64,000 nucleotides of DNA from Antedon bifida (taxonomy: Eukaryota > Echinodermata > Crinoidea > Comatulida > Antedonidae). Positions 24,580 to 48,149 of the stretch are shown piece by piece. Position 1 is the first letter of the stretch; every line of letters begins with the position of its first letter. The DNA is taken from the NCBI GenBank assembly GCA_963402885.1, contig OY727094.1:14696501-14760500 (forward strand), written 5' to 3'. The notes below the pieces were generated by a model that saw only the letters and a list, made by a program, of their open reading frames with translations, made no database searches and had not been told where the DNA came from. The position numbers and the translations under genes are program-made.

Positions 24580-27550
24580 ATGAATTGGCTTCATTGTATC
24601 ACCCTCAACGCTAGACGGATTAGATCAAAAGATAAAGTGAAAAAAGTATTTCAATGGTGTAAAGACCAAAAAACAGATATAATTCTTTTACAGGAAACAC
24701 ATTTAACAAATGAATTAATCAAAAAGTCTTTTTTTAATTGGGAAGGAGAGGCCATGCACAGTGTTGGTAGTTCACATAGTAGAGGTGTTTCTGTTCTAAA
24801 AAAGATTTAGAATGTAGCATTATTAAATCTTTAATTGATAAAGACGGAAGATATATTTTTATAAAATTGCTTGTACATGGAAAGCCACTTATTATTATTA
24901 ACGTATATGCGCCAAATAAATGTAAAAATAGAAGTACATTCTTCAGAAATATTAGCGAACAAGGCAAATAACTGGAGTTCAGTCATGAAATTGGAAATTA
25001 TAAAAACGAAAGTTAAAGAATTTTCAATTCAATACGGTAAAGCAAAAAGTAAAAAACAAAATATAAAAAAAGAAAAATTACAAAAAGAAATACAAATTCT
25101 AGATCAAAACATTATTAATGATTCTAATTATAATGTAGATGTTGAAACTATTTTGGAAAACAAAAAAAATGAATTAGAAAATATTTATGATGTTGAGGCC
25201 AGAGGTGCTCAGATAACATCGAGGGCTAAATGGATTGAAGAAGGTGAACGTAGTACATCTTTTTTTCTTGGTCTTGAAAAATCAAACTGTAAAAATAAAC
25301 AAATTAAGAGCCTGTTAAACAATAATGGAAAGATTGTAACATTTTAAAAGTTTGTATGAAAGTGTTAAAATATGCCCAAAAAAAATTGATGAATACCTGA
25401 AAAAGACAAAAGTGAATACACTCACTGATAAAGAGAAAGAGTTATGTGAAGGTAGAATCACTATTGAGGAATGTAAAGGGGCTGTTTTAAGTATGAAGAA
25501 AAATAAATCGCCTGGCTCAGATGGACTAGGTGTAGAATTATACATTTTCTTTTGGGACGGTGTTGGACAACTGTTATGTGATGCGTTAAATGAATCCTTT
25601 GATTCAAAGGAACTTTCAAACTCACAAAGAAGAGCTGTTATTACCCTTTTATTTAAAAGTGGTGAAAAACAAAATTTAAATAACTGGCGTCCAATTATGT
25701 GTTAAGTTATAGACTACGCAGGGTCATTAAGTCACTAATTGATTCAGACCAAAAGGTTATATTAAAGATAGGTTTGCGGGGGAAAATATACGTTTAGCTA
25801 AAGATCTACTTTATTATACGGAAGAAAATGATATTGAAGGGGCTATGATGGTTCTTGACTTTAAAAAGGCTTTTGACTCGGTTAGTAGTAAAGTAGTAGT
25901 AAATTAGTAAAATTTGGTAATGTGTTTTGTGAATGGGTAAAAATTCTGTATAACAGAGTAGGGAGTGTCACAATTAATAATGGATGGGTATCAGAAAACA
26001 TCAGAATGGAAAGAGGCATTCGGCACTTTTATATATTCTTGTGGTCGAAATAATGGCTTCTAATATAAGAAATAGTAATATTTACAAGGGAATTAAATTA
26101 CCAAATGTAAATGTCGAAGCTAGAATAAGTCAGTTAGCCGATGACACAATACTTTATGTTGGTAATGAAAAGAGTCTTCATACAGCGGTTAACACTGTGG
26201 AAGAATTTTGTGAAATGTCAGGCTTGAAATTAAACAAACATAAATCAAAAGCTATGTGGATGGGTAAATGGAAAAATAGAATTGATAAACCACTTGATTT
26301 ATGTTGGGAAAAAAAGCCGATAAAGATATTAGGAATATATGTGGGATATGATTACAAGACTTGTGAAACTAAAAATTGGAGTGATAAACTGGTTGATTTT
26401 GAAAAGATTTTGAAAGTATGGAGTTCTAGAAATTTAACACTTTATGGGAAAGTAATTATATTGAAGTCACTTGCACTAGCAAAACTTACATACAATGCAA
26501 ATATTATTACTGTACCAAAGTATGTTTATGACATAGTTAACAAACAAAGTTAAAAATCTGAAAAAATAAAAAGGAAAACCTTAATTGGAAACCTAAACGA
26601 AGGTGGAATTAAAATGACAGATTTTAAATTACATACAAAAGCACTTAATGTCACATGGCTAAAAAGGTTGTTACATGAAGATGAAGCAAAATGGAAATTT
26701 ATTCCAAAATTTTATATTAATAATTTATGTTCAGAAAATATTCTTTTTAAACATGACAGATGAAAACCACTTTATACATAAAATGCCTATGTTTTATGAG
26801 AGTATGTTGGAAGCATGCATAAAGTATAATAATTGCTGTAAAAGAAGTGTAGACACATATGATGATATAATGAATGAACAGTTGTGGGGTAATAAGTTAA
26901 TACAACTTAAAAACCAATCACTATGTTATAAACATTGGATTGAATGTGGCATTATTTTAGTGAAGGATATTATAAAAGAAAATAGATTCATAACTTCAAA
27001 AGAATTGTTGGTAAAATTAAAGTACAAAACAAACTGGTTAAATGAATACATGTGCTTATTAAAAGCGATACCAATACAATGGAAAACTATAATCAAATAC
27101 GAGGAAAATTGTTATTATAATATAACAGAAAATGTCATTAAGAATAGATATAAGGACATCACAACAAAGAGTATTTATCTCTTTATTTAAATTTTTGTCT
27201 CTTCGGTTTGTCAAGGAAAATGGGAAAAATATTTTCATAATTTGAATATTGATTGGAAGTCATGTTGGTTATCTAAAGTTTGTAAAATGAAAGATAAAAA
27301 ATTAATACACTTTAATTACAAACTGTTAAATAGAATTTTAGCAACAAACAAAAGGTTGTTTATCTGGAAACTAAAAGATACTAATATATGTGGTAGATGT
27401 GGAGAGGTACAAGATGAGGAGCATATGTTTTTTACTTGTAAATTTATTCAAAGTTTTTGGACAAAAATAGAGATTGTTTTAAAAGGTACCAATCATATAA
27501 ACAAAATTTTTTCAAAATCTGGTAATTGGAACAAGAAATATTCTTACTGA
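24580..27550 (+). pseudogene. LINE ORF2: endonuclease, reverse transcriptase and C-terminal Cys/His motif, broken
   Basis: 24580-24807 encodes the endonuclease start (LHCITLNARRIRSKDKVKK, DIILLQETHLT). About 24810-24960 continues it in other frames. Most of the endonuclease is then missing. 24995-25345 is the linker region, and 25352-25705 the RT fingers. About 25830-25890 holds MMVLDFKKAFDSV, and 25984-26553 holds the altered active site LADDT and the thumb. 27242-27550 ends with CGRCGEVQDEEHMFFTC, a C-x2-C-x7-H-x4-C motif. Many frame changes make it inactive. Confidence 0.8.
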
Positions 27551-28469
27551 TTTTATATATACATTTGCTGCTTTCACGGTTTATAAACAAAAGATACTGG
27601 CTGATGTTACAAATAAAAGTTATTTTAACTTATGGAAATCTTTTAAACAAGGAATTCTATTCAGAATGGAATGTGATATAGTGTATAAAAGAAAGGAAAG
27701 CATAAAAAAATGGGAAAAAGTAAAAAATATTATTTTAGCGAGAAAATATTATTACGACACAATACTTAGTATTGTAGTATGGTTTTACCTTACTAGTTTT
27801 ATTTACTGTGCTATATGAGTTACAGTATATTTTATTTTGTGATGTTGTAATGGCAATTGTGAACCTATATTATGTGATGTATATTTTTATATAACTTTTG
27901 TCTATTTTTTAAATGCTTTAACTTTTTATATATGTAAAATACTAAAAATAAGAAAAACAAAAAAAAACTTTAAGCTGCAGAGAAAAATTGATATAGATTA
28001 TTGTAACAATTGTAAAGAATGAAATAAAAGTGAGTGAATCTCACAAAAGACAAAAAAAAAACAACTGTAATACAAGTTGCAAAATGGCATTGAAATCATT
28101 CACTAAAGTACCACATCAGAACGTAAATCAAACTACACATCATTAAACTTTTAAAATTATAATTATATCATTGTTATTAAATTATGAAATAATAATGTGT
28201 ATACTTAATTACAAAGTAATCTAAATATACTAAATTCAAGAAGTAAATGTTAGGCCACACATCATTTAAGCCAAAGAAACTATGTTTTTTGTATATTAAA
28301 GTTCACATACATTTTACATTATAAAGTACAAATAAGTACAATTTGTGTTATTTGTTTGTGCATCATTGAATTTGAATATATATACGAATGCATTGGAACA
28401 TAAAAAAAATAATTGTTTAGTATTTAAAAACAGTACAGATGCTCTGATTGTATGATGTAAATTCCATAG

Positions 28470-29026
28470 CTAAATAGATTGTGCTAAGATTTGCGGAATA
28501 CCTTCTAGAACTTGGACAGGCCTTATAAGTTGTAGGAGCTTTATGCTGTCAATAAATGGTTGCATATCTTCCTCACAAATTTCGTTTCTTTCCTCAAGGT
28601 CCATAATCAAATGCCATTTATCTTCATAATTCTGTTTTGCTTCATTAAAATGTGAATTCATTTTCTGCATATCTTTATTGGTCAGACTATCTCCAAACTC
28701 TATCAACATTAGTCTGTGTCGAGACAACTTTGAAATGGCAATATCACTAACATTCGGGAATGCTCCGATTTTCTCTTTAATTTTTGTTGCCAATCCAAAT
28801 TGTTCCGTTACTTTTATGGTTTCATAAAACAAAGTTAAGTCATGTCTTGTTAGATGTTCTCTGTCCATTAAGGAATTTAGTAGCTCAGTTGTGTTAGATG
28901 CTTCATCTAACTCACCAGTTGGCAGGAGATCTTTATACAAGAGTTTCAGCTTATTGAGTAAACGACGATGATCATACCACTCTGAACAGTTTACTTTAAT
29001 GAGTTTAAAGTTACAATCAGAAATTT
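28470..29026 (-). CDS. Second tandem death-effector-like domain exon, with alternative donor
   Basis: The exon follows linker exon 29486-29530 in phase. Domain one includes LLPTGELDEASNTTELLNSL and MDREHLTRHDLTLFYETIKV. Domain two includes SRHRLMLIEFGDSLTNKDM and ends FIDSIKLLQLIRPVQVLEG. It resembles tandem DEDs, with the SRHRLMLIEFG segment clearly paralogous to SEHRRKLIAFG in exon 41282-41836. Read to the end it stops at 28470. A GAAG|GTATTC donor after 28502 falls at the homologous position to the first exon's donor and would splice in frame into 22295-22339. Confidence 0.7.
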
Positions 29027-32000
29027 CTATGAAAATAAAAAAAAAACATACAGTATATTTAAAATACTATTACAGGCTAAGAATAAGTATAAATTTAATA
29101 CTGTAATCAAACAAAATTTTTCTAAAACTTTTGTCGGAATTTAAACCTATGGTAATGGTAACTGTAGGCCTATAGGAATAAAGTGTAATACATGTTGCAA
29201 TGATATAATCTTAAATTATAAAATAAAACTGCCAATATTGCACTCAACAATAAAGCTATCAAATATTGTTGAATATGAAATTCCACTAGACATTACAGTT
29301 GTATATAAGTTTGAAAATTTAACTAAATATGAATAATATCTGCAAAGTCTATGCCTAAATCATGTGTTTGTCGGAAATTGTATAGCATAAATTGTTGGAA
29401 ATCCAATTCAGTTAAGAAGGTGACAACCTCATTACACAAATTAAGTAGAATATTGGCACCCCAACCCTATTGAAATAAAACATACTTTCTACATTGCTTG
29501 ATGGTCCAGCTTCACTTCTTGATTGTTTATCTAAAAAGAAAGTATTTTAGTACATTAGTTACAATATCCATGTTGACATTTTATTTAAACTTCCAAGAGA
29601 CATTTTGAATTAATCAAAAACATAAAATATTAAGATTTAACTTGTTACTTTTTGGTAACTTTATAGAACCAAACTGCCAAGTACCATGTCAAAACATAAA
29701 TCAAACTGCACGTCAAGTTTTATAGCAGTTTAATAAGTATGGTAAACGCCTATCACAACCTTCTCTTCCCCTCTTCAAAGAATATAATTTTCTCCCATCA
29801 TTAATCCGACTTCAATCCCACATTCCAAATCATTTATCCCTAAGTCAATTACAGTTTTCAACAACACCGTTACTAGATAATTTGGTTCTGTTTAAGTAAT
29901 TTTTATATAATGTATTTTTATTGTTATGTATAATGTTTTTGTGCAATTTTATATAGTGTGTACTATGTTCTTATATATTTAAACGTTCTTTTTAAATAGT
30001 GTACAAAAAACGAATTTCCGATGTTTTATTGGACCTAATAAATGCTGTGAGAGCAGCGCATTATTATTATTGAAATTATAGTTGGGTTCACTGCCTTAAT
30101 ACCATTAATTACCAGCAGCACTTACAATGAATATTAAAGTATGACCATGGAGTAAAGAATAAGTAATATTCTTAACTCCATGGTATGACACATATATTCA
30201 TTGTTGCCATGTTTAAAATTAAAAATAATAATGACAGAAATAAAATTTAGAATAGAATCATCATGGCACTAAAGGAAAAAAAAACCATACTTTTTGGGGT
30301 GCTTGATGATCCCCAAAGTCTGGCTAGGCTTAGTTTTGTAGGGCCTAGCTGGTAAACAGTGGTAATGTAGGAACATTGTACACTAGCTATAGGCCTAGGC
30401 TGGCCTTGTCTCCTTGCTGAGTTAATTGTCTTTCTTTTTTTTGGCAGAATCATTTTTTCCTTCAAACCATTCTACTACAGACCTATATTCCATTATAATG
30501 ATGATTATGATTATAATTGGTTGGATGTAGACCTAATGGAAATATTTGATCCGATGGAATGAAAGAAGCATGTTTGAAGTTAATTATTCTTTATTTTTAT
30601 TAAGGTGCTGTACGTGTATACGTAAATGTGTCAATAATTTTTTTTTATTTAAAAGGGGGGAAGAGTGCACTTTATTATTACATTTATTTATTACTGCTAG
30701 TTAAATATTATATTGCTATACTAAGAATGACTGGTTTTGGTTTTAGGTATAGTAACAATAACATAATAATAAATATAAGAAATACTTTATAATTTTAGAC
30801 CACATATTATTGATCGATTACCGGTATATGTTTGCATTTTAGAAGTATTAAAAATATTATTTAAGTCTATTCTACTGTACCTGATATTAAAGGACGTGCA
30901 TAGTCTGTCCTATCCACTTGTGGTGGTTGTCGTGGTAGATTTGAGGATGTAGAAGGCGCATCTAAAATTACAAAATATATTAATACTCTAATTTATTTAA
31001 ATTCACCTTTGAATCTGTCACACAATGCAGTCTGGTCCAATATACAAAACAGAAAATGTTGAAAACAAGAAAAACTTAATAGCGAAACTGAAATATATAC
31101 AAGCAAATTGGGGAGTTTTTCAAATTTATTTTCCTCATTTGTATTCATAGTGTCCATAAGTCATAATCATTAAAAAACTGTCATATTACATTTTTAAATC
31201 ATGGACTTTTGATACATCTACATCCTTAACAAGATTGCTGCATTCAATTCAATTTTTACATTTTGTTGTACTTTTCAAGTTATGTTCTCCCCATCGAAGT
31301 GGAAAAGGCCTATGTTGGTTTATCCAGGTAAGCTAGCACTTATAGACTACCAACACAACTATGTGTATTTTATCTATTTTAATCACTTAATTTTTGTTGT
31401 TTTGCTGTTGTTAATGTATTTTATTTGTATAGTTGCCAAAGTAAAGTCAAATTTATTTCCTGTTTAAATAATTAAAAATCTTGAAGCAACAAGTGTATTA
31501 AACATTCTATTTAAAAGAACTGTGACAAACAAAATACATGAAAACGTTCATGAGTAGAAAAACTTTTATTCGGAATTGAAACCCCACCAATATAATTTTA
31601 TAAATACAAAATCAACAAATATGTTTACCTTTTGTTAGTTCATCACCAAACAATTTACGGTAAGGTCTCACATCCATTTTCCTTTCATCACAAGGTAAAT
31701 AATCTTTGTTAAACTTGCTAATAACATGCATATGAGCATTGGTGTTTGGACTAGATGCACAAGGAATGCACATCCTCACTTTACGAACTTGTGTATTTTG
31801 AAAGTTTGGACTACATTCACAAGGGATGCACATTCTTACTTTAAGACCCCGTGCACCACTCTGACTGAACACTTTCAATTCCTCTTGGAGGAAACAAAGT
31901 ACCTAATAGTATATAATATATAGAATATTAAAATTAATTTAAAAATTGTATTGCATGTAGAATCAACAGTCCCGAGTATCAGCTGAAGCGAAATAATCAA

Positions 32001-35000
32001 ATCCAGAACATCGTGAAATAAAATCATTTATGCAATATTCAGAATGGAAACTGATTATGATCAAAATCAATTTTTCAGTATAGTACTATATTTTTCTTTA
32101 GTGAACAAAATCTATATAAAAAATCAATCAAAATACCTATACCAACTTTGTAAATAAAGTATATATATATGATGTTGTTTAGTCACTTTCATATCTACTA
32201 GCCTACCTTCTTACAGGCTTCAGGTAGTGGCTTGATTTCATCTTCTGTAAGCTGCTGTTCTAAAGGACTATCATTGAAGCTCTTTGTTCTTACTATTGTT
32301 GTCTGAAATATTTAAAAAAATAAACAATTTATTTATTTTTAGTCATTCACAATAAAAATACTATCTTCTTTGGGACCCTTGATACAATAGTATAAAACAT
32401 GATACAATTTTAAAATGCAAAAACAATTCCTAAAAGTTACCTTTGAAAATATTTATTACAATTTTCAGGGGTGGGGGAAGGGGTGCAAATTTTTTGAATA
32501 TTCTGTGAAGCTCAACTACAAAACCACCATTTTGTGGTGTGATTTCATCGATCAAAGCTGAGCTTTCCTGTGATTGGCAGAGCTTTTTTGGAATCTGGCT
32601 ATTTGATGGTTGGACGCAAATACCCACAGTGGAACTCGTGTGGACCAATTAAGTCACATGGTCTCTCTGGACTGATCAAGTGGTAAATTTAATGCAAACA
32701 AAAGAAAGACATCAGCATGGGTTTTTTTATGGGCAAACCTCCGTAATCTACAGTGTGTTTCATCAATGATCGGATGAGCTGAAGCATGAAGCATTCAAAA
32801 CCAAACTGGCTTCTGTAGGATTACGTTGCGCAACAAATGTTTCTTTCAAAAGTACATCTGGTATTTATGTATCTTTTTTTTAAACATCATATTATAGTAG
32901 CAATTTTACACAAAATTGTCAGCATTTACACAACACTAAATCACAAAATTCATATTTCCTGCAAAATATTTTTAGTTTGCGAAGTAATTTTATTGTAAAT
33001 TTGGGTAAATTTATTATTGCATTAAAAATATGGTACTAATTGTAAAATGTACCTGTAACATACGGCATTGTTTAATGGTAGTAACATATAGAATGACTAG
33101 GTGATCAGCATCAATGTTCAATTCTACATGCTCATAGGATAGAACAGGTTCTTTATCTTCCATTTGAAATTTCTCAATAAACTTTGTTGCAGCACGTTGG
33201 AAAAGATCATCTGGAAGATAGCTACCAAAATCATGAAATAGAGAAACTGCACGCTTTTTTTTAAATCCAGGTGGTGGTGAGGCATGTGGTTTCAAACGTG
33301 ACAGAACGTAGAAAATTTTTTCATTATTCTGTGTAAACAAAAAATAATTTAATAAGTAGATCAGTAGGCTATATATAGGCTAGAAAATTGAAATATTAAT
33401 GAAATTAGTATCAATACCTTTGAATTTATTTGTTCACACACTAATCCAAACTTTTGCATGAGAGACGCAAAGAATGATAATATCTCATCAGAATCACAGA
33501 ACTTCTCCCACAGATGTTTTAGCAATCCACCTTTTAAAATGCCTTGGTCCAGCATCCTCCAAGCTGGTCTCATAGCTGGTACCTATTATTTTACAAAAAT
33601 AGAATACAATTAAAATCAAATTTTAATTTATTAATTCAGAGTAACATTGGTAGGTATAGTTGAAAAAAAGTATTGATCTTTGAGTTCATATGATTGGGTA
33701 CCTGTAACTTTAGTGAAGTTATTTTCTATCAAAAGTTATTTATAATTAAATTTAGAAGCCAGTAATATTATGTTGCTGCACAGTATGCAAAACATCATTT
33801 TTGTTAATTACTAACCATATCGTCATGGTCTATTACAGTGATGATTGTTTTAAACATGTCAACTAGTCGCATCAAATCTACAACTATTATATCTCTTAGA
33901 TCCTTGTCATCTGGGTAGTAGAGGATCATGCCAATGTCATGTAAATACTCAAGCAGAACTTTGTGACCGTCTGTTACTTTACAGATTTTTTTAAGTACTT
34001 CATCTTGGATCTGTTCAAAAATAGATATGAACATACGTAAAACAATTATAATGAAAAGTTTATTAATATACTTTCATAAATTTTCAAATAATATGACAAT
34101 GTAACAGTACAATAAATACCTACTATAAAGAGATTTAACTTTATATATAAAGTACATCTATTAGTGAAAATGGTAGTTGACTGAAAGCTTCACTACAAGT
34201 AATTGTTTTATTCAGACCCGTATTAACTAGGATTTTACACCAATTACAATGTAAACTGAAAATAACATGGTGGTATACTGAAAATTGAGATCTGACTAAT
34301 AGAACAAATACTGTAAACCTTATTTGTGAATTTTTCTTTATAAAAGAAATTGCCACATTTTTAATATGGTAATTCATTAATTGTTTACATTGAACGCTAT
34401 TTTCTATTAATTCTTGCACCTAACCTCAAAAGTTGGTAAATAGATGTGCTTCTTTTTCAAGATTTGGATTTCCTGCTGGACTTGCAACCATTTTATTGGC
34501 AAAGTGCGGATCATTTTCTTTGACAAATCCAGTATTTGTTTCATGATGGCAGAAGCATTGCTTTGTTTAAATGGTACACTGTTTTCAATGGTAAAAATAG
34601 TTGAACACACCATAGTTTCATATGGTTTGTCTTTTAGGGCTTCCCAAATTTTAGATTTTATTTCTTTAACCTGAAAGAAAGAGACACTTAATCACTGTAG
34701 TTTCTCATGTTTAAAGCTATTATTATCCAACAACATGGCACCATCTTCCATTCCATCAAAAAATGATTATTACAAAAGAGTCATTTCTCTACAGTCTTTC
34801 AACTCACCTTTTGATTATTTAGACCATTTAAATGTGTACCTATCAATAATACAGGAGGACAAGGCTGACCATTTATCTTTGCATCAGGTCTACTGTTTGT
34901 GTATATGGAACGAATCCAAGAAAGAATGAACTCCAGATTTGTCATTCTGTGGTCATACTTTTCACCCTAAATTTTATAAGTACATATGATAACAAAAAAA

Positions 35001-38000
35001 TGTTTGTAGAACACTCAATTTTAATTTCTTTGATCATGTATAATACTGTATACAACAATTGAAAAAAATGTAATTGTTCAATCTATTGTTATTCATTTAT
35101 TGAGTAATGCAGGAAAAGAATGTTCATTTATTACTGTAGTTTTGTGTTAAATTGTCTATGGATAAGATGTGAGAAGCTAATTGATAAGTCTTAAAACTTT
35201 AAGATCTGTTCAGAGCAGAGGTATACATTTTTCACTATAAAGTAATCACAATATAGGAATTGAAAATAGTGTTTAAAAACTAATAAAAGTGAGCTTACAG
35301 TTGTTGGATCCAAAACTTTAGCTGGGGCATCAAGATCATCACAAAGGTTGAATACTACGCATACAACAGCAAAAGATACCATGAAGATCTATGAGATCAA
35401 TAAAACAGTGACATTCAATGAATGGTAAATATATCAAAATGCTTGATTATCAATAACATTTAAATTTAGAATTGTATAGGGTTTTTGTTTCATAGTGTTT
35501 TAATTTTTAGATTTAAAATATCATGTCTAAACATAGCTATTTTACCATAGTACTAGAATTCTTATGAATAACATTTAAAGTTTGTTTTGTTACTATATTA
35601 GTGTTGGCCTTTCCTAACTTTGTTAGTCTTATATAAGAGGAGGAAGACCTGTGCAGGCAGAACTAACTTGTTAGGCCTTTTCTCACAGAAATATATGTTG
35701 GGAATATATATAAACTAATACCATGCTGGTCTGACATTCTGTCGGAGTGGGTAATGCAGGCTTCGGGTAAAATATTCAATATATATATATATATTCCCTG
35801 CATTTTGCTTCCATGTCTGTGAGAAAAGGGCTTCATGTAATGAAATGTAACTACTTTACCCGCTGCATCACATGATAAATTGGTTGTCCTCCGAAATCCC
35901 AGATATTCATCACAAACTTGTCGCTAGTCACATTGTCATTACTTCCTTGTTTCTGAAACTCAATCTCTATTAATTCTTCTTCTCTTTTTGAAGGAATCTT
36001 TGTCTCGTCATCACTTCCATCTTTCTGAAATGTTTCTTGTTCTATATTTTTGGTTGTTTGTAATTTAAATAAATTAAAAATTGTAAAATATTGTATTAGT
36101 TGACAAATAAAATATCAATATCATGTTTCTGTATGTAATTTCTATAGGACTTTTTTAGGATAATTTATAGGATTCTGATTATTTTATAAATGGTAATTAA
36201 AATTAATAATTATTGTAGAAAAGTACATTGTCAGACAATTTAATTTTTAAAAATGAAAGTGAAAATAACGAAGGATCTACAGAATATCAACGTTTCTGAT
36301 GATTTCAGGTCCTGAGTTTGCTTTTCTAATGATTCTACTTGGCTTTTCGTTTCCTGATTGACAAGAAGACTTGTCATAGTGACTTTTCAATTGCCATATA
36401 TCTTGAAAGAAAACCTTGTCAATTATTAAGAGGAGAATTTGGCACATGCCTCTAAAGATGTTCCTCTTTCATTGAGTTTGTTTGAGAATAATAACAAATA
36501 TAGTTTCTGGTTAAAACATGAGCAGAAAATAGTAGGTCTAGTTATTTCGAGACGCAGAGGCCCATAGTTTTAAAAAACCAAAAATTGAAAGAGGCAAAGT
36601 ATATTTGTTTTGAATTATGGATCAAACATTCGAAGACACCAACTGTTTTAAAGTAAACTTCTATTCAATTTAACCACCTCTTCCATCTTTTTATTTTATA
36701 TGTTTTTTTTATTTATGACATGAATACAGAAAAAGTTTACATGATCGACAATAAAGCAGCTAGAATCATATTAAGGATTTATACTAGAAGAATAAATTAT
36801 TCTTGTCACGTATAAGATCCTTTTAAAACTAAAATAATATAGTTAACTAAGTAAACATATAAAGAAAAAGAGACAATAAATCAAATATCGAATAAATGAA
36901 AAAAAGTAATAAAAATAAATCGAATAGCCCAGGCCACAAGTCAGCCCATGTAAAATTCAGTGCTTAGTTTTGGTAGAGCAGACAGTGAAATGGTGTGAAA
37001 TGTAATAATAATACGCCCTGCACTTGAAATTCCTATTATCATTTTTTATTACCCTCGTCCATTTTGCTTTCTTCTGTTATAGTTGATTCTGCTGGATTTT
37101 CTTTTGACTGTTCTTCTATTCTGTCTTCTTTCACATGCTTCATGGGAGCATTTTCATAATTGCCAGAAGCCTGTTTTGTAGATGCTGTTGCATTTTGTTT
37201 TCCTTTCACTTGTTTCACCACTTCTCTAGCAATTGCTTTCTCATACATTTCAGAAGCTTTAAAAAAAGTGTAATTTGTTTTTGTATATTATTGTTGTGCT
37301 TGTACACTATGAATATGTTAATTATTTATTAAAATGTTAAAAAGGAAGAAACACACATTTAATTGATTCATTTGCCATGCCAGCTCAGGAGTCGCAAAAG
37401 CAGGAAACCCACTGTCGCCTAAAGGATGTGCGGCTCCCTAACAACAAACCAACAAATGCAATATAGTACAAAGCTTTCAAAACAAAAAATACATCACACA
37501 CATTTGAAAAATGAATATATCCATGATATTACAGAATAAATCCAGTTCTGTGTTATAAATAAATAATTTAGGTAAAAAGAAGCAAGTTATCAATTTATTT
37601 AAAATTTGTTTGAATTAAAGTAGTAATCAAGAAATTGTATGTAAAACAAATTATATGAATAACATCCATAAAACAAGACAATACAACTACATAATCAGAT
37701 TAAATAAATAAATATTAAACAAGAATCATACATAAAACAACAGAGGATTTAACATGGGATTTTTAAAGCAATAAAAGAGAAAAAAAATTACTTTTTAATC
37801 ACGGTGGATTGATTTGAATATTAGCCATTTGTATGAATTAATTTTCAAAGTTTTCAAGGGCCTTATCTATGTTATGTTCTATGATTGTCATCCAGTTTTA
37901 TTTTATTAATTTATTTTTATTTATTTAAATTTGTCTCCAAACTTATTTTGGCCTCCTTCTGCACTCTCGTATTTTTCTACTCTTGTAATTTTTTCCTTAG

Positions 38001-41000
38001 CTAAAAATTGTAAATGTGTGTGCAGAAAAGCAGTTTAGATTTAGTTTAAAATTTAGTTTCATCAAAGTTTTTGTAGTTTTTACTTGTTTTATATCTATGG
38101 TTATTAACATTTTCCTTTTGTTTACCATTACAAAATAAATAATAGAATAATCACTGATTATGCAATACACTGGCCTGGCTTACCCTTTTCTGTATTTGTG
38201 ACATGTATATGAAGGTTAATGTATTTTTTTAAATCTTGTAAAATCAGTTATTAGAGAGCTTTCGCTATCTCGATCGGGAACGAGCCGCCGAGAAAGTAAG
38301 GGTTTTTTGTGTATGACGTCATTAGTTTATGTGAAATTTTAATTAACTAATGCTCGTAGCCCAAGATACAGAAGCTGGTTCTCGTTCCCGATCCGAGATA
38401 GCGAAAGCTCTCTATTATATTTTATAAATAATGAGTTTACTGAAGCCAGAAAAATATGGGTTTGTCACAAAAGAAATATTTGCATACTTGTGTCAATAAA
38501 TGTTGGTTGGTTTTGACAGTATACTTGGAATTATATGTACTACAAACAATTTTTTTAACATCTATGAACCATTATTTCACGCATCTTAATACTTACATGT
38601 GTCTGGTAGTTCTTCTTTCAATGTTGTTTCATCGACATCATCTTGAGTGCACACCGTTGTTGTTGCTATAGCGTCAGTTATGTCATGATTTGGATTGAAA
38701 CTATAAAAGAAATGTTGATTATAAAATTAAATATCGAATGTCAAAAATGACAAGAAAAAATGCTTTCTTGGTAGAGAATACTGTATTTGTTTATACTACG
38801 TCATATTATATTAGTTAGGGCCACAAAATATGCTTTTTTTGTAGAAAAGGCAAAATTACATTAAATTGGTATTTATGAATTCTTGGTATCAATGTCCGAT
38901 GACTTAATGTGTTTTACACCCTTTCGTCAATCAATTTCACACTTCAGAAAAATGTTTGTATATTAATAGGAAATGTGGTAAAATGAGATGGTAATGAAAT
39001 GATATTTTTATATTTTCAGTGTTTGTAATGTTCACAATTCAGTTCATTAGTGGAAAAAACTCTGGTTTTCAGATGGAGGCACACACATATTTAGTGACAT
39101 GATCCTTTATTTTTCTGGCAGCTATTGAAGATGTTAAGTTGTTTATAATTTTGTAAAGTGTATCTTACATATAATGTAAATAATAATAACCTTTAAACAA
39201 TATTGTAACATGAAACTAAAAGAAAGTGCAAATACTTCTTTTGAGAAGTGTATTTTATTGTTACTTTATTTGAAAATCACTTTTAATTGTAATTGTATGT
39301 GTGTGCTATCTTTTAATTTGACTTGACAGTTTTAATAGATTTGCTTACCTTTTCTTTAGCAAAGCATTGATAGTAGAAGTTTTTCCTACTCCTTCAAGAC
39401 CTACAAAAATAACTCTGCCTTGTTTAACTTCAGTTTTCCCTTCTTTCAGAGCTTCATTGAATGCTCTAACTGCTTCTGGTCCTCGAGCCTGTATCTCCAC
39501 AGGAGTTAAGTCTTGAAAATAAAACTTATTACAATTAGTACACAATCAATGTAATTTACCAAATGGGGCATTCCACAGTATTTGGTCCGTGGGTTGAACA
39601 ATTGTATTTACTGATTTTGATATTACTCTTGGCCATTTCTCAAAGTAGAAGTTTATTAAATAACATTTTTTTTATTTTTCTGATATATAGTTTCTAAGTT
39701 ATTGAATATTAAATATGAAAAAAACATATTTCACGGACAGGACATTTTAAAATTCTATTTATTTCATAAACTATGCATCTTATTACTGTTTTATCAACAG
39801 ATATAATTACTTTATGTCTCAATAATACATAATTCAAGTATTTAATTAAAATGTTGTTGTTTATTAATTCCATACATGCATTTCAAATTCATAAATGTCC
39901 ATGACGTTTTAGGCGGTTTTTTTACATTTATTTTAATGATGCCAAAAATCTTGATATTTCATTTTCTCCTGAGGTCTATCATTAGATTATTAACACATTT
40001 TTTGAAAAATTTTATATTTTGATGAAAATATATTTCAAAAACATTTCAGGACATTTTTGTTACGGACGAGATATTCAGTATCATTTAAATCCTTATTATT
40101 TCACAAACCATGAATCTTTTGAACATTTTTTTGCCAGATATAGTTATTCTTTGTCCCTATTGTACATGGTAAAGCATTTTATAAGACATATTGTGTTTAT
40201 TAAATTTCCTATATGCATTTCAAAATTCATAATTGTCTCGTCCACGGCATTTTAATAGTAGTTTTGGGGTGTTTTTTACATTTCAGTTAAAAGTATTAAT
40301 ACCACAATTTAATATTTTTGTTTTCTACTTTTAAGAACTATATGTAATACATTATAAACAAATATTTTGAAACTATCATATTAAAACAAATATATTGATG
40401 ACATTTTTCGTCGGAACGGGACAGACATTTTTGTTACGGATGGGACATATCATTTAAAACATTTTTATTTCATGCATCTTGTTAACATTTTTTCCCATAA
40501 ATATACTATACTATTACTTTTTATTTTACAGTAAGCTCCAATTGTTCATAATTTTTTATTAAAATTAATTTCATACTTGCATTTAAAAATGCATAATTGT
40601 TAATTCTGAGACATTTTGATTACGTTTTTCCTCACTTTTCCTCAATTATTGAAGTAATGTCTAGAATCTAAGACCACAGCGTTGATATTCATTTTGTGTT
40701 ACTTTTTGGTAACTTTATAGAACAAAACTGTAATACAAGTTGCAAAATGGCATTGAAATCATTCACTAGAGCGTTAAAATTATAGATTAGGTTAAAAAAT
40801 ATCAAATTGCGTGCGATGCATGCAGGTATGCATGGCAGGCCTTTTAAATTATCAGAATCGACTTATTTATTTATATCGTTTAATAAAGACGAAACATTAT
40901 AGACCCTAGTATTTATTTTTACATATAATGCAGTTTGTGACCTTATTAGATCGTTAAAACGCATATGAATGCTATTAAATAAGTACAATACTCAAAGTGA

Positions 41001-44000
41001 ATTTGTAACACAATGTTGACTTACAGATTGCAGTAACAGAATATTCACTTTTTGAAAAAAAAATTAAAAAACATACTTTCTGTATTGCTTGATGGTCCAG
41101 CTTCACTTCTTGATTGTTCACTTCCTAATTTTAGTACAGTATTACAACATCCGTTTTGATGAATATAATATTATAAAGCCTTTTATCAATAATATAATTT
41201 GTTTCCCTAAAACCATTCTACTACAGACCTATATATCAAGTTATTTCTGCTATATTTATGAATGAGCTTATACTGCTTTACCTTTTAATGTTGTCAATGC
41301 CTCCACTTCTTTCGTCATCTTCATATCTGTAAGTAGTTTAATGAATTTGTCCATCTTCTCTCCTTCTGCAAGTGTGCCTTTCATTTCCAATTTTAAGATT
41401 AATAAAAACGGATCTGTGTCTTCGTTGACCTCCTTAATGCCTTTAAGGCGGCCAATAGTTACTATGTTCTCTGTATTCAATTGCTGACCAAACGCTATCA
41501 ATTTTCTTCGATGCTCTGAAAAATGTTTGAATGGAATGCATTTGAAGTTTGGTAATTTCACTATTTTCGCAATCACGTCTTGCACCCCCTGAAGTCCGCA
41601 TATATTAGTAGCTTCAATGAGGATACCAATGTCTGCCGGTTTGAGAAGTCCAGGACCCTTAAGTAAACTAATCAGATCATAGGGTATATTTTCATCCTCT
41701 ATTTTTTTCAAAGTAATGGTTGTATCACGATTCGTGAACTCGCTAAGTAACACTTTCAGCATGTCAATGTTTCCATGTTTCTTCCACCAGTCTGATACCT
41801 CTACAAGCAGTTCATTGTAATCATCCTCTTTCAATTCTAATAATAGTAATAATATGATTCATTAATGATAATAATAATATCATTACGTGTTAAAGAGTCA
41901 AAACTGTACCATATAATAATAATTTATTGATTTTATATTTATTCTGCTATTCTATTAAGGAATTTGACCTTATTGATTAAAAAGTATTTTAACAAAATAG
42001 GGAAAAGTGACAACCGACTAAACTACTATCAAAAGTTAAGACTGAAAGAGCAAAGAAATTCACCACCAATGTGGATGACCGAAAAACATGCGCATCATCC
42101 ACAGGTCGTAACTCTTCTAAGAGAGTTTAAAGCCTTAGAATTCTCCAGTTTCACTGACGCCAGTGTTTGAGTGCGGAGCTCAGTGCCATACCTTTGCTTA
42201 ACATGTCTGTGAAGTTGGTTACTAGTTCCTAGTTCCTTATTCAAATTCAATTAAAGGGACAGTCACAAATATATAAAAAAAAACAGATTTTAATATGTAA
42301 TAACTGTCTAATTGAGTTGTTATTGCATCAACTTGTTGTTGCAATACGGCGAATAAGTAACTGGCTTTTACGAACGTTATAACACTTAACCTACTTAATT
42401 TTTTCAGAATATTTTGGTATGAATCGATCACCCTTGACCTACTCTATCATTTGCCACCCCAGTTCCGCAAACTTTTTTGCGTCTACGTCCTCTACGGCGA
42501 ATAAGTAACTGGCTTTTACGAACGTTATAACACTTGACCTACTTAATTTTTACAAAATATTTTGGTATAAATCGATCACCCTTGACCTACTCTATCATTT
42601 GCCACCCCAGTTCCGCGAACTTGTTTGCGTCTACGCCCTCTACGGCGAATAAGTAACTGGCTTTTACGAACGTTATGATCTACTTAATTTTTTCAAAATA
42701 TTTAGGTATGGATCGATCACACTTAACCTACTTTATCATTTGCCACCCCAGTTCCGCGAACTTTTTTGCGTCTACGCCCTCTACGGTGAATAAGTAACTG
42801 GCTTTACGAACGTTATAACACTTGACCTACTTAATCTTTTCAAAATATTTTGATATGAATCGATCACCCTTGACCTACTCTACCATTTGCCACCCCAGTT
42901 CCGCGAACCTTTTTGCGTCTACGCCCTCTACGACGAATAAGTAACTGGCTTTTACGAACGTTATAACACTTGACCTACTTATTTTTTTCAGAATATTTTG
43001 GTATGAATCGATCACCCTTGACCTACTCTATCATTTGCAACCCCAGTTCCGCAAATTTTTTAAATCCTTTTTTTTATAGATTTGGAAACAATAGCCCTAT
43101 TGTGGGGCATTGAAATTGAAGAATATTCATACCTGACGATGTCATTTCGATGTAAGGTAAAGGTCCACCTAAACAAGTAAAATGAATGTGTATATCAAGC
43201 TTTTCAGTGCAGAATTACAGATTGGAAATAATGTAGGATATAAAGGACAAACATATAAATTACCTTTGGGACCAACATGTAGATATTTATAACAGAATTA
43301 GTAGCACACAAAATGGAAGACAGGATAAAATGCACAACTGAAACCATATTACATGAAGTACCGTACGCCTTGTGCTAGATAACAAACCTAACGCTGCGAG
43401 TCTGAACATACCCTGTACCAACAGTAGTTGAGATGAGCCGCTATTTGAATCAATCTACTTTTTTTTTATAAATCATATTTTTTAATTTGTTTGACTATAT
43501 GACTGACTACAAATACTACTAAAAAGTGATCATTAATTCTATTTTTAGAAGTTCATGCTTTTATTTGCAGCACAATGTGTTTTTTAACTTACCATTCAAA
43601 ATTGCAAGTATTTCTGTTTTCTTCTGTTCACCATCGTATTTATCGCACACATTTTCATTATAGATATCAGATGCACACTCTCCATTCTGACAATCAAAGT
43701 GTTTGTGATTTAAAATAACAATATTAGCAATTCTAGTTATAAGCATAAGTTCTGATAAATCCCTCAGCTACTCTTTTAAAAAAAAATTAAAATTCAGCTT
43801 AATTTCATAATTTGCAAGAACATACTAAACCAAAAGATAAGCCAAACTAAATAATACTAATATGTGAAATAACCCTGGCCATTAAAAAAAATCAAATTAT
43901 GACAGACTAAATAAATATATTTCATAATAGGCAAATTCTAGATATTTCAAAGGTCAATAACTTTACTTTTGTCAATATCTTAAAAAAATATGCCACTGGA

Positions 44001-46044
44001 CTAAATCTACTTCCACTCAGTGCGATTTTATGCATTAATATCACTAAACCCATTTGCCACGATATTTTTCCCAGGGTGTCGGACACGTTAATTCAAAGCA
44101 TGATGTGAAATCAGCTGAAATAAAATATTTATCATTATTTTCAAAAGCCATATAATAACCACACATGCCATTAGATCTAAACTAATTAAATAAATGCTCT
44201 GAAAGAATTTGAACAAAATAAATCATTTTTGGACTAAATCATGTAGCTTACTAATAGTCCAAAAGTAACCTGCAACTGAAATAAATGTTAATGATGAGCA
44301 ACTGAGAAGATAAATTTAATATCAAATGATATGTCAACAACTATAATTTAAAGAAATATAGAACAAATACTTATGTAGTTTCATTATTTATATTATATGT
44401 ATTTAATTATATAACATATACTTCAGTATACAGTTAAATATGAGACTAAAAGTAAAAATAATGGAAGCATGCTGTTTAAACAATTCAATTTAGATTTACA
44501 ATTTAACAATACAATGTGAATACTGTAATGGAAAAATAAAAAAGAAATGTTAATCACTATAAATATATACGATATTAATTTTAATATTTCTGTAATTAAT
44601 TCCATCAAACAAATATACAGGTACATGTGAGGAGGTGGATGGGCAATAGACTGCTCGAGGGTCAGACAAGAAGAAAATAGCTTGTAATATTTTCAATGAT
44701 AATTCTCCTGAGGACGATCAAAGCATATTGATCGAAACGTCGAGAAAATCAACAGTTTTTTTCAGAACTAATATACATGGTGTACCGCAAACTTTATATC
44801 AACAAACAATAATAAACCTTTTTGTTTCTATTTGTTATATTTTATATAACTTTTTAAAAAAAAGAATAGAACTAAACTTTATTATTAAAATAATTGCATT
44901 GCAGTACTTAATAACAAACTAACCTTATTTTTCTTGCTAATGTCCATACGTCCTTCCTTTATGAAGAACACAAAGGCATTTTTGTGCTCTTCATAAGTAA
45001 GGTTTTGTTGTGCAATTATATGCAGAGCGTTGTCTCCATTCTTGAAAAAAGTGAAAAAAAAACAAAGTGCACAAGCTGTACTAATACTGTGAATATTATA
45101 TTTTGATTGTACATACAACCCTTTAGTAAAAACTCTCCAATTTCATTTACGAAACATGGATGATTTATAAATAATATAATCAAAACCTACTGAATGTTTA
45201 CCATTACTTATCTATCATTTGATTGATTATATTGATTGATTATATTTACTGAATACAAAAAGAGCATATTTATTTAGCAAGATATCTGGAGAGAAAAAAC
45301 CTTTTCATTTAAAGGACATAGTTCTTTAGTGAAATTTCAATATACTTTGCAAATTGCAGACGATAAAAATGGTATACTTGGATATCAGTTATAATACTTT
45401 ATGTTTGATTCAGCTTAGAATTCATTATAATGCTATACAAAAGCTTCTTGTCAGCTTTTTAAACTATTTTACATCAAATCTTTTTGAATCAAAAGATAAA
45501 ATATTTGGTTTTATCTCAATATCTCTATGGTTTTATATACTTTTTGCTTTAAGATTCTATAAATAGGTTGGTGAATTTACAGTGGAATCAATAATACCTA
45601 CAATAATATCATGGCACTAGCCAGGTACAGATATAGGAAGTTTGCATAGAGTGTGGTACACAAATAGAATGCACTAATTTGAGGATAACAAATATAGGCC
45701 TAAAGAACATTTAACATTCAGGATTGAATGGTGGTAGCTGATCAACTTGGATAATAATATGGTAAAAAAAATCCAGATTATGCTGTCCTAGTGATGGAGC
45801 GAAATGGTGAGGGGGTAGGTGCAGCAAATAGTATAATCCTCTGAGTTTTGTGTAATACCGGCATACACTGTGATATTTGCAATACGATGCAATAATACAT
45901 GCATAATTATGTGAAATTACTAGATAGACTGTGTATACAACTTACTTTGTTTTGCTGGTTCACATTTGAACCAGCATCAACTAATGTCATACAGCATGCA
46001 GTTTGACCATTGGCTGCAGCCTCCAATAGTGGTGAATTTCCATC
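28470..46044 (-). CDS. Modular ANK / DED-DED / Roc-COR / DED-DED protein gene (21 exons, 5' end not seen)
   Basis: Exons on the minus strand: 45946-46044, 44924-45040, 43593-43686, 43133-43168, 41282-41836, 41077-41124, 39349-39511, 38597-38700, 37053-37256, 35860-36041, 35299-35388, 34808-34966, 34425-34670, 33816-34010, 33418-33582, 33053-33328, 32207-32302, 31629-31902, 30881-30961, 29486-29530 and 28470-29026. All 20 introns are GT-AG and phases join without a break, giving 1,261 codons and a stop. Order: ankyrin-like repeats (about residues 1-115), DED pair (116-300), linker, Roc (318-617), COR (618-911), tail (912-1061), linker, DED pair (1077-1261). Roc-COR proteins are GTP-controlled scaffolds; DEDs recruit caspase-8/FADD-type partners. 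I infer a cytoplasmic immune or death-signalling scaffold. The first visible exon starts in phase 0 after an acceptor, so more exons lie upstream. An alternative split into two genes at 41.3 kb is possible because the DED exon has a stop 12 bases past its donor. Confidence 0.8.
29740..30075 (+). mobile_element. LINE-like 3' end with ATT tail
   Basis: A short plus-strand frame ends near 29899 and is followed by T-rich sequence. The block finishes with aataaatgctgtgagagcag and cgcattattattattg. The layout suits a 5'-truncated non-LTR element. The family is not identified. Confidence 0.4.
30144..30190. repeat. Hairpin with 17-bp arms
   Basis: The sequence accatggagtaaagaat is followed by attcttaactccatggt after a short loop, with one mismatch. 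It is intronic, between the linker exon and exon 30881-30961. Confidence 0.55.
30305..30445. mobile_element. Degraded fragment of MITE family 2
   Basis: It shares ggcttagttttgta, cctagctggtaaaca and ttaattgtctttct with the MITE copies at 51595 and 61877. The ends are missing. Confidence 0.6.
30881..32302 (-). CDS. Post-COR tail exons with an internal Cys-motif duplication
   Basis: Exon 32207-32302 encodes 32 residues (ends PLPEACKK). Exon 31629-31902 encodes a Cys-containing segment in which KVRMCIPC plus SPN occurs twice, 20 residues apart, followed by HMHVISKFNKDYLPCDE and RKLFGDE. Exon 30881-30961 encodes a Pro/Ser linker (STSSNLPRQPPQVDRTDY). A metal-binding role for the paired CxxC-like motifs is possible, but the second repeat is CASS, not CxC, so this is uncertain. 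Confidence 0.7.
33053..34670 (-). CDS. COR domain exons (intact copy)
   Basis: Four phase-0 exons. 34425-34670 has IENSVPFKQ and IRTLPIKWLQVQQEI. 33816-34010 has VLLEYLHDIGMILYYPDD and FKTIITVIDHDD. 33418-33582 has MLDQGILKGGLLKHLWEKF and LMQKFGLVCEQ. 33053-33328 has FYVLSRLKPHASPPPG and SYLPDDLFQRAATKFIEKF. This is the classical COR order: LP-x2-W helix, hydrophobic hairpin block, W/GIL-lw block and beta-rich end. COR follows Roc in every known family member and mediates dimerisation. Confidence 0.85.
34808..39511 (-). CDS. Roc GTPase domain exons (intact copy)
   Basis: Exons 39349-39511, 38597-38700, 37053-37256, 35860-36041, 35299-35388 and 34808-34966. Visible motifs: P-loop GLEGVGKTS (about residue 354), a G2-region FNPNHDITDAI, the G3 motif WDFGGQP, the hydrophobic strand MVSFAVVCVVFNL and a G4-like LIGTH. 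The G4 Asp common in Roc (THxD) is replaced by Asn-Gly here. Exon 37053-37256 adds a charged, low-complexity insert (EDRIEEQSKENPAES) between G2 and G3. It is less conserved with module 2 than the surrounding exons and so is probably a loop. Confidence 0.85.
38252..38413. mobile_element. Short TIR element (MITE) of about 160 bp
   Basis: Left end agagagctttcgctatctcg and right end cgagatagcgaaagctctct are inverted repeats extending about 30 bases with one indel. It has no coding capacity and lies in the Roc intron between exons 37053-37256 and 38597-38700. Confidence 0.75.
39650..40640. repeat. Degenerate tandem repeat, unit about 350-380 bp
   Basis: Blocks of the form ggacattttt.ttacggac followed by ttcataaact(a/c)tg(c/a)atctt recur at about 39733, 40048 and 40425 with long AT-rich spacers between. 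It is intronic and no gene is seen. Confidence 0.5.
40690..40960. repeat. Duplicated intron segment plus MITE family 2 fragment
   Basis: The 40700-40770 sequence (actttttggtaactttatag, then acaagttgcaaaatggcatt) recurs beside the other linker exons at 29650 and 28065. From about 40790 a fragment related to the TTAA MITE follows (gcgtgcgatgcatgc, cagaatcgacttattt). Confidence 0.55.
41282..41836 (-). CDS. First tandem death-effector-like domain exon
   Basis: One 555-nt exon encodes 185 residues with two helical domains. The first contains LISLLKGPGLLKPADIGILI. The second begins SEHRRKLIAFGQQLNTENI and ends with FIKLLTDMKMTKEVEAL. Helix spacing, the terminal L-x2-A/L-D-x2-L/F pattern and the side-by-side arrangement resemble tandem DEDs of FADD/caspase-8/c-FLIP type. 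It is homologous along its length to exon 28470-29026. The donor AAAAG|GTAAAG leads in phase to the linker exon; reading through instead gives a stop at 41268. CARD or another death-fold member cannot be excluded by eye. Confidence 0.65.
42197..43055 (+). mobile_element. Truncated copy of the composite element with five satellite units
   Basis: It starts with acatgtctgtgaagttggtt and aaagggacagtcacaaatat, as at 12448. It then enters an array of about five ~147-bp units (tacggcgaataagtaactgg near 42347, 42495, 42641, 42784 and 42930). No inverted right end is present. It lies in the intron upstream of the first DED exon. Confidence 0.8.
43133..46044 (-). CDS. Ankyrin-repeat exons of the Roc-COR gene
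   Basis: Exon 45946-46044 is exactly 99 nt and encodes one 33-residue repeat (DGNSPLLEAAANGQTACC...LVDAGSNVNQQNK). Exon 44924-45040 encodes a 39-residue repeat (NGDNALHIIAQQ...KEGRMDISKKNK). Exon 43593-43686 encodes a terminal, weaker repeat (NGECASDIYNE). One-repeat-per-exon, phase-0 structure is usual for ankyrin genes. Exon 43133-43168 is a short linker (GGPLPYIEMTSS). Ankyrin repeats mediate protein contacts. The number of upstream repeats is unknown, because a LINE and then other sequence follow to the right. Confidence 0.8.
44640..44830 (+). mobile_element. Penelope-like 3' end with hammerhead-like stem-loop
   Basis: The segment 44708-44741 reads ctgaggacgatcaaagcata then ttgatcgaaacgtc. 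It gives CTGANGA, a six-pair stem (gatcaa/ttgatc), then GAAA. That arrangement matches the 11564-11816 arms. It is followed by a short tail. No coding part is present. Confidence 0.5.
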
Positions 46045-46765
46045 CTAAAAAAATAGATTATAATATGTCATACAACAAACCTCTTTAGCAATGCACAGTA
46101 GAAGCATGACCATTAATAATTGTGGTATATTTAAAAATATTTTTTAATATATATTGTTAGATTATTTAATTTAATCATGATCATAATAAAAAGTTTACCC
46201 AGTGAAGATATACATTATTGAATATTTTGAATGTTAAATGTTCTTTAGGCCTATATTTATTATTTTTTCAAAAATAAACATATTTTAATGTTTATTGTGC
46301 AAACATGATATTTTTCATCGCTATTTAGTATTATATTGTAACTATCTATATATTTTGGTATTAATATGTTATAAGTAATATAAATAATCAAAACACATAT
46401 GACCATTGTAAAACTTTTGATGAAGTGTTATAAATTGCACTAAATGAATCAATGGTTAAAATGTCTAAAATGGCATTTCAACTAAGTATTAAATAGGCTG
46501 TGTACATCATAAGTTAACAGTTTTTAGTCTCATTGAGCTTTATGATAACTTTTTTTGAAGATATAATTTGTCGATCATCCTAGGCCAAACAAGGGAATAC
46601 AAGCTACTAAGTGGAGCACATTCCAGCCCTTTGACCAAGTTGTCTAGGCCCAAGCTACTCGAATAAACAACTAGTGCACTGATACTTCCTGTGCTGTTAT
46701 TCTATTGTTCTTAAACAAAAGAACTTAATTTGCCCACCAAACAAATATTCTGGATATCTTGAATA

Positions 46766-47949
46766 ATGGGTAGTGCTAAGAAAAACGTGAGCCCTCGGAA
46801 ATCGCAATCTGACTCGAGCCCTAGTAGTAAAAGTCGTTCACAACCGCAACCAATCACCAACAGAAAGATTAAGTGTATTGATAACTGCAAGTTAAACTTT
46901 GATGAAAGTAATGGAAAGTCAACAGAATGCCTATTGTGTAAAGAGACATATCATAGAGTGTGTGTGGACATTAACCCAAATTCTACATCCAAGTCGTGGA
47001 TCTGTTTATCATGTTGTTACCTACCAAGGAATGTCTTGGAACTTGAAAAACAGAACAAGTTACAACTAGATATGCTGAACAAACTAGTAGACGATGTTGC
47101 TTCCTTAACAAAGCTAGTAGATGAACAAAAGTCTGTAATTTTAGACATGCAGCTCAATAAAAGTAATACAAGCTCTATGCCCAATAACTTTCAAGAATTG
47201 AGAACTACTGATGACAAACCAAGCTGTATAATAGGTGACTCTATTATAAAGGACATATGCGAAAGAGGCCTTAGTAACTCAAAAGTGAACTGCATACGTG
47301 GAGGGAAAGTTAAGGATGTAAAACAACAACTCAGTAAACCAGATGATTTTAGCTCGATCCTCATTCATGTTGGTACAAACAATTGTACATCCGATAATGA
47401 TTTGGAAGAAGGTCTTGTCAACTATGAAGAAATGATAAAGGAGGTAAAACTTTAAGCTCCAACAACAAAGATAGTGCTTTCTACAGTGTGCCCGAGAACT
47501 GACAGCGATGATCATTTACCTAGGATTGCTTTGATGAATGCAAAAATCAAAGAGATAGCTAACAACAGCTCTGTAGTCTAGTTGATAACGATGAAACATT
47601 TTTCCTGAAGAATGGTACAGTTTTACAATCGCACCTCAACGGAAGTGGTTTGCACCTTTCCAAATCTGGTACAAAATGCCTTCTTAGGAACTTAAATGAG
47701 CGACATACAATCATAAAACCATTTGTACGAAGACAGCAACCAAGGCAATATGCAACAAACTACCAAAGACAAGATCAATTGAGAAGTGGATCATACAGAG
47801 GTTGGAGAACCAGATCATATTCAAACACCACATCACATGATTATGGAAACCATCCCAAGAAATTTGGCTACACAAATGCTAATACCAACAGAAATGGACG
47901 CCTAGAAAATTCATTCAGACAGGACCAGCTCAATAATCATCACCAATAG
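46766..47949 (+). pseudogene. LINE ORF1: PHD-type zinc finger plus SGNH esterase
   Basis: Residues about 32-85 give a C4HC3 pattern (CIDNC, CLLC, YHRVC, WICLSC), a PHD-like finger. A coiled stretch follows, then IIGDSIIKDI and ILIHVGTNNC, the first and third blocks of an SGNH-hydrolase fold. After a stop near 47453 and another near 47578, GSGLHLSKSGTK supplies the catalytic-His block, though the usual Asp is Gly. The remainder is an Arg/Gln/Asn-rich basic tail. ORF1 esterases with PHD fingers are known in CR1-type elements. Confidence 0.75.
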
Positions 47950-48149
47950 GACATTGCAAGCAACAATGCTTTACTCTCAGCAAACAATTTCTACCCTCTT
48001 AGCGACGAATTTAATTGCAACAGCAGAGACTTTATACCGAGTGAAACCACTTATTTAGAGACACAAAGCTTAACAGTACAAGAAAAGAACACACCTAAAA
48101 GAAAACGAAATAGACGAGGTGGTAAGAAAAAATTCCAAAATAGTAATAC

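Follow-up and report, generated by a model that had tools for sequence, protein, structure and literature searches.

A crinoid Roc-COR gene with predicted tandem death-effector modules on either side of its GTPase core

Tandem death-effector domains (DEDs) are known chiefly from caspase-8 and the FLIPs; LRRK2 and DAPK1 are the most familiar ROCO proteins. Here, we describe a gene of the crinoid Antedon bifida that appears to combine the two. It lies on the minus strand between 46044 and 28470 of a 64,000-nucleotide window (the whole stretch analysed; contig OY727094.1 of assembly GCA_963402885.1, positions 14,696,501 to 14,760,500), in which 21 exons join into 1261 amino acids in the order ankyrin, tandem-DED exon 5, linker, Roc-COR, Cys tail, linkers and tandem-DED exon 21. 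Judged from their sequence, the exons likely form a single protein, which is likely one member of a crinoid ROCO family that is probably exon-shuffling.

The chain was assembled from stop-free minus-strand frames in 28.3-48.0 kb, joined through GT-AG borders and phase. Rebuilt from the DNA, it has GT-AG at all borders, consistent phases and a sole, terminal stop, in agreement with the count, coordinates and absence of phase errors given by an earlier sequence-only reading of this DNA; the domain order proposed there also stands, with its DED parts as predictions. An initial 22-exon chain (1276 amino acids) held a weak exon at 36353-36292, which was dropped because an in-phase acceptor at 36041, adjoined by in-frame sequence in the predicted protein P0001 of Antedon mediterranea, makes it superfluous. 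Exons 5 and 21 sit in the longest minus-strand stop-free runs of the 28.3-48.0 kb interval (196 and 198 codons); in first-order Markov simulations of 28.0-47.0 kb (n = 200) the maximum run was 151 codons and the longest runs averaged 97.

At the N-terminal end, exon 1 (45946..46044, 33 amino acids, phase 0-0) holds the single ankyrin repeat above the Pfam cut-off (Ank, 27.7 bits against 21.1). Exon 2 (44924..45040, 39 amino acids) is ankyrin-like by eye and falls partly within an Ank_2 stretch at 6-66 (25.4 bits, under the cut-off of 27.3), and exon 3 (43593..43686, 84% identity to P0001) ends the ankyrin-like region, again by eye. Exon 1 opens at a phase-0 acceptor and the coding start lies upstream, outside the window. 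An isolated ankyrin exon of phase 0-0 stands about 35 kb upstream of exon 1 (7421-7323, minus strand, of the stretch L010). Its last residues are QQNN and those of exon 1 QQNK; it is a probable candidate for a further 5′ exon of the gene, and one long interspersed nuclear element (LINE) and another transposon-like open frame lie between the two.

The ROCO core occupies exons 7 to 18. Pfam, run on the joined protein in its 22-exon version, gave 47.6 bits for COR-A (cut-off 35.3) and 45.3 for Roc (27), so that both families, like Ank, pass the profile check that the sequence-only reading had proposed. Exon 7 (39349..39511) carries the P-loop GLEGVGKTS (G1), exon 8 (38597..38700) by eye the probable switch I region, exon 9 (37053..37256, phase 1-1) an acidic insert between G1 and G3, and exon 10 (35860..36041) the end of that insert and the G3 motif WDFGGQ (DxGGQ); G1 and G3 are the same in P0001. 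Roc continues in exons 11 (35299..35388) and 12 (34808..34966) and passes into COR-A in exon 13 (34425..34670, Pfam COR-A). Exon 14 (33816..34010) is COR-A, exon 15 (33418..33582) COR and exon 16 (33053..33328) probably COR-B, before COR ends in exon 17 (32207..32302) and a Cys-rich tail follows in exon 18 (31629..31902). Identity to P0001 is 100% in exons 7, 8, 12, 13, 15 and 17 and over 60 aligned amino acids of exon 10, 99% in exons 9 and 16, 97% in exons 11 and 14, and 96% in exon 18. Roc is directly followed by COR, as in ROCO proteins, and the structure model of P0001 matches LRRK2, through COR, and Roco structures.

The base-specificity motif G4 has the form THxD. Exon 12 reads GTHLN at this position, and none of the 13 crinoid proteins whose motif can be read has the Asp, which counts against the GTP-switch reading. 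Asp is likewise missing from P0015 (hemichordate), P0016 and P0017 (limpet) and is kept in P0018-P0022, P0025, P0028, P0029 and P0034. Because G4 varies across the family, the G4-G5 motifs being described as variable among ROCOs (PMC6337361), THLN was not used to exclude ROCO membership. Neither LRR nor kinase, which would point to ROCO groups 1 and 2, was among the 16 Pfam families found at E ≤ 1 on the joined protein (parts 5′ of exon 1 lie beyond the window), and within the same scope Death and protease domains gave no Pfam match in the joined protein. DAPK1 also has ankyrin repeats. As a group 3 ROCO protein, DAPK1 is portrayed with Roc-COR, a death-fold domain and a link to cell death (PMC6337361), but the part of the crinoid protein that lies inside the window shows no kinase by Pfam and carries tandem DEDs in place of the one C-terminal death domain of DAPK1.

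P0001 (1184 amino acids) is the best relative of the joined protein and carries, in the same order, a DED pair, Roc, COR, Cys tail and a DED pair. It matches 15 of the 21 exons (3-5 and 7-18), at 96-100% identity in 14 and 84% in one; for exon 4, a linker (43133..43168, phase 1-1), all 12 aligned amino acids are identical. Twelve of the 20 junctions are the same (3-4, 4-5, 7-8, 8-9 and 10-11 to 17-18). In place of two others, P0001 joins exon 5 straight to exon 7 without a change of phase, junction 9-10 differs by nine residues (P0001 has 9 extra amino acids at the 5′ border of exon 10), two precede the usable P0001 start, and three (18-19, 19-20 and 20-21) belong to a differing C-terminal module. 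For 20-21 a parallel exists in P0117, where an equivalent linker stands immediately before an exon-21-type module; in the window this linker is exon 20 (29486..29530, DKQSRSEAGPSSNVE, phase 1-1). It is shared with exon 6 (41077..41124, SEQSRSEAGPSSNTE, phase 1-1), the P0001 C terminus and P0117. Exon 19 (30881..30961, phase 1-1), also a linker, has GT-AG borders and can be skipped in frame, and the search for homologous support found none for it.

Some features of P0001 weaken its support for one continuous chain: it is itself a gene prediction, its start falls within an intron of the present chain, it passes over exon 6, and its last module is of another type than exon 21. Its C-terminal pair is of the exon-5 type (86% identity to exon 5), it has no counterpart of exons 19 and 21, and ankyrin exons 1-2 are absent from its model. 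The locus might then hold two genes or transcript classes, an ankyrin and tandem-DED product ending at 41268 and a separate Roc-COR and tandem-DED product, so that the two pairs never share a chain. The frame of exon 5 does reach a stop 14 bp beyond its donor, five AATAAA sites lie 0.35-0.8 kb past that stop, and most DED-pair relatives bear a pair on one side only. We nevertheless judge this arrangement unlikely. AATAAA has a background of about 2 per kb on the minus strand, P0001 joins exon 5 to exon 7, and the frame of exon 7 meets a stop 35 bp upstream and contains no Met, the next Met of the chain lying in exon 9. The P-loop exon therefore needs an upstream splice partner that ends in phase 1, as both exon 5 and exon 6 do. 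We infer one transcript across the exons.

The death-effector identity of the two flanking modules was approached from structure and from profiles. Exon 21 (28470..29026, including the stop) by itself matches Pfam DED (PF01335) at 27.0 bits (E 5e-6), under the curated cut-off of 35.9, a value against which the relative P0009 reaches 49.6 bits. Its predicted structure is a tandem DED of two packed six-helix domains (predicted local distance difference test, pLDDT, 89), and all 50 of the Foldseek matches listed are caspase-8, c-FLIP or viral FLIP, at 12-20% identity. A different fold for exon 21 was rejected on this model and these matches, which answers the structural check suggested by the sequence-only reading. 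A DED-pair profile was then built from eight sequences (one from L013, a stretch continuing downstream of the window, two from the window and five crinoid proteins; 177 positions). A search of all PDB sequences listed 26 matches at E ≤ 10, of which the top 13 were c-FLIP or caspase-8 DEDs, with c-FLIP best (E 3.6e-5) and caspase-8 covered over positions 4-152 of 177 (E 0.002); four of the eight members match Pfam DED at E ≤ 1, the best at 1.8e-9. With the four exon-21-type members alone, caspase-8 or c-FLIP made up the first 13 of 17 matches and caspase-8 was best (E 0.0073). Searched against PDB as single sequences, exons 5 and 21 had unrelated best matches (E 0.51 and 1).

For exon 5 (41282..41836, phase 1-1, 98% identity to P0001) the case runs through exon 21. 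Profiles of the exon-5 and exon-21 types align in hhalign over 172 columns (probability 98.7, E 1.8e-16), with a score of 102.6 compared with 19.7 for the best of 40 column-shuffled controls, 13.1 for the reversed profile, 10.0 for crinoid death domains and 12.1 for COR-A. Exon 5 is accordingly predicted to be a tandem DED by sequence homology, and exon 21 by its modelled fold. Several results weigh against the exon 5 assignment: by itself the exon draws no Pfam DED, the three exon-5-type members used as a profile matched 0 PDB chains, and the N-terminal module of the P0001 model has a block-mean pLDDT of just 38-76. Structure matches listed for the full-length P0001 model are nearly all Roc-COR and other GTPases. 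That the helical exons have some other helical fold, as the sub-threshold Pfam score of exon 21 and the empty Pfam result for exon 5 could be taken to mean, is to us highly improbable. The earlier claim of two DED pairs is thus upheld for exon 21 by its predicted fold, and for exon 5 only as a homologue of exon 21.

The likeness to caspase-8 and c-FLIP lies in predicted fold and profile homology and does not extend to the contact residues or to a caspase domain, which the joined protein lacks. Residues were compared through an alignment to 4zbw_A, transferred to the exons by the DED-pair alignment; since 4zbw has Ala at 122, it is the position that is compared, and the motif name RxDL and the numbering are what we take to be the native caspase-8 usage. 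At the position of F122, exon 21 has Ser and exon 5 Arg; where RLDL carries R and D, exon 21 and the family profile read Gln and Gly. Both differences speak against a caspase-8-type assembly. L123 is matched by Leu in exon 5 and the consensus and by His in exon 21. The combination that marks caspase-8-type filaments, FL in DED2 with RxDL in DED1, is not present. The FL motif is assigned a role in caspase-8 DED assembly (PMC7864959). With these key contact residues not conserved, the protein could have a partner other than FADD or caspase-8, those of vertebrates.

Death folds on Roc-COR proteins have precedents. The sequence-only reading held that such proteins were known only with LRR, kinase, ankyrin or single death domains, which is contradicted by Trichoplax Roc-COR proteins described with CARD and death domains (PMC4104024) and by two predicted proteins, P0026 of amphioxus (Roc-COR with DED, OTU and Death) and P0025 of Owenia (Roc-COR with a caspase domain). 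A sea anemone gene is reported to combine kinase, Death, Roc-COR and TIR (PMC5094078), and in P0015 a Roc-COR relative is fused to TIR and Death. The closest in layout is P0026, Branchiostoma lanceolatum Hypp5498, in which death folds flank Roc-COR with DED ahead and Death behind; it differs in its single DED, its OTU protease domain, the Death domain in place of a DED pair, and an identity of 23%. Nor is the layout unique to this gene, since P0001 has it too. Searches of open-licence PMC articles turned up none that treats tandem DEDs together with Roc-COR and none on crinoids with a death-effector domain. Death folds on Roc-COR and exon shuffling of ROCO genes are already known, and the flanking tandem-DED layout is a variant of these.

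The profile found a DED pair at E < 1e-30 in 13 of 124 proteins, 12 from A. mediterranea and one from Anneissia japonica, in a set that is enriched because it was partly found with that profile, which itself contains pieces of P0001, P0002, P0003, P0009 and P0014; P0124 has only part of a pair. P0001 bears a pair on either side of Roc-COR. P0009 of A. mediterranea likewise has same-family pairs ahead of Roc but differs in having four of them, no ankyrin and no C-terminal pair in its predicted 1351 amino acids. P0002, P0003, P0014, P0119 and P0121-P0123 resemble the joined protein in COR and/or Cys-tail sequence followed by a same-family pair (in all but P0003, the sequence before the pair matches the P0001 COR and/or Cys tail at 30-71% identity); they differ in having no pair ahead of Roc, and several are partial, without a P-loop. 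P0003 (A. mediterranea) places a TAZ zinc finger and KIX (94 bits), presumably a CBP/p300-like pair, before Roc-COR and the terminal DED pair, with Roc just below its cut-off, and in P0120 (A. mediterranea) a same-family pair precedes NACHT (29.3 bits, above cut-off); the contigs that carry P0120 and P0001 are equal in length. P0123 (A. mediterranea) has a long hydrophobic stretch between Cys tail and DED pair, possibly membrane-spanning by eye. A protein search with exon 21, confined to short candidates, gave 1 match. A further DED-pair exon of P0009/P0119 type lies downstream of the window (L013 2215-1619, minus strand).

Exons 4, 5, 6, 9, 19 and 20 of the window are phase 1-1, and short intron stretches by exon 6 recur by exon 20 and downstream of the stop. 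The C-terminal module is of the exon-21 type here and a second exon-5 type in P0001, a difference for which module exchange would be the simplest reading. From this sequence comparison, the DED pairs are probably phase 1-1 cassettes that can stand in for one another. Exon shuffling is known from brown-algal ROCO genes, proposed as immune receptors, in which single LRR exons shuffle (PMC11378527); in crinoids DED-pair and linker exons appear to do so. A copy of the linker exon (SRSEAGPSSN-type) lies at about 22287-22508 (minus strand), some 6 kb past the stop, and is perhaps an alternative 3′ exon.

A second Roc-COR gene lies in the same orientation at 12022-3610 (minus strand) and continues into L013 7840-6548. 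It matches A. mediterranea P0010, which has COR and three Death stretches and begins behind the P-loop, at 66-94% per matched exon in the window and 57-70% in L013. The P-loop exon of this second gene is divided between two reading frames, and the locus is rich in repeats, so that the gene described here could itself be a decaying copy, yielding hardly any product or none, in a tandem cluster full of transposons. This we regard as very unlikely, given that its 21 exons and their borders are intact and 14 exons are 96-100% identical to P0001. A 147-148 bp tandem repeat, about 85-95% alike between places, occurs at 42345-43061 (intron 4-5), 12633-13246 and 15194-15529, and a perfect 48-bp repeat (9.4 copies, 100% identity) at 17688-18138 is open in several frames. 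By reading, LINE-like reverse-transcriptase frames lie at 24865-27815 and 46763-51416 (plus strand) and a large open frame that resembles a transposon and is Cys-rich at one end at 52547-58911 (plus strand); these frames occupy the stretches between the Roc-COR genes and upstream of them. An exon-by-exon Roc search of the own genome gave 149 places among the best 150 of 299 candidates scored, none of them in the window. By hand count, 28 of the 149 are in uninterrupted open frames of 919-1030 amino acids, 26 of these on contig C15, where apparently intronless Roc genes cluster (13.46-13.55 Mb, 17.17-17.33 Mb and elsewhere).

On balance we lean towards a crinoid ROCO protein in which a Roc-COR dimer aligns the flanking DED modules and so would seed a DED assembly for a death or immune signal. 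The exon chain, the Roc-COR sequence and the relatives are observed, and the folds are predicted, from a model for exon 21 and from homology for exon 5. In published accounts, Roco proteins alternate between monomeric and dimeric states with the nucleotide (PMC6337361), and tandem-DED helices nucleated by FADD align and activate caspase-8 (PMC7864959). The ankyrin repeats may bind a ligand or an anchor; dimerisation of Roc-COR would be the trigger that brings two chains together; the dimer would expose or align the tandem-DED modules; and DED oligomers would be the output. By analogy, the fusions to caspase (P0025), TIR and Death (P0015) and OTU, DED and Death (P0026) suggest death and immune outputs. 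A caspase domain was found in 0 of 7 further proteins matched by the DED-pair profile (8 matches, one already known, among 3994 candidates), an absence that is weak evidence against this reading.

The GTP-controlled caspase-8/FADD-type platform of the sequence-only reading can be advanced only conditionally, as G4 is THLN and no counterpart exists for F122 or for R and D in RLDL. These mismatches weigh against the strict FADD/caspase-8 version and make a FLIP-like brake a serious rival, in which DED pairs without a recruiting surface would cap DED assemblies formed by other proteins, or titrate them, and so restrain death signalling. Such a brake would fit the missing contact residues, the absence of a Pfam protease or kinase domain and the family profile, which scores c-FLIP best, though exon-21-type members alone favour caspase-8. 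Two pairs per chain and a dimerising core favour clustering instead, and the related P0025 bears a caspase domain; we consider the brake improbable, if worth keeping in view. More speculatively than the seeding role favoured above, these genes could form a distinct crinoid class of innate sensors, a ROCO switch with caspase-8-like tandem DEDs at both ends, whose phase 1-1 cassettes would have been doubled, quadrupled, swapped between species and put before NACHT, and in which one dimer would seed polymers from four modules. A protein that unites ROCO and tandem DEDs, with a DED pair at each end, would allow one to ask directly whether dimerisation of a ROCO protein controls death-fold polymerisation, and the family would be one in which the shuffling of complete DED-pair exons diversifies the signalling output as well as the ligand-binding end.

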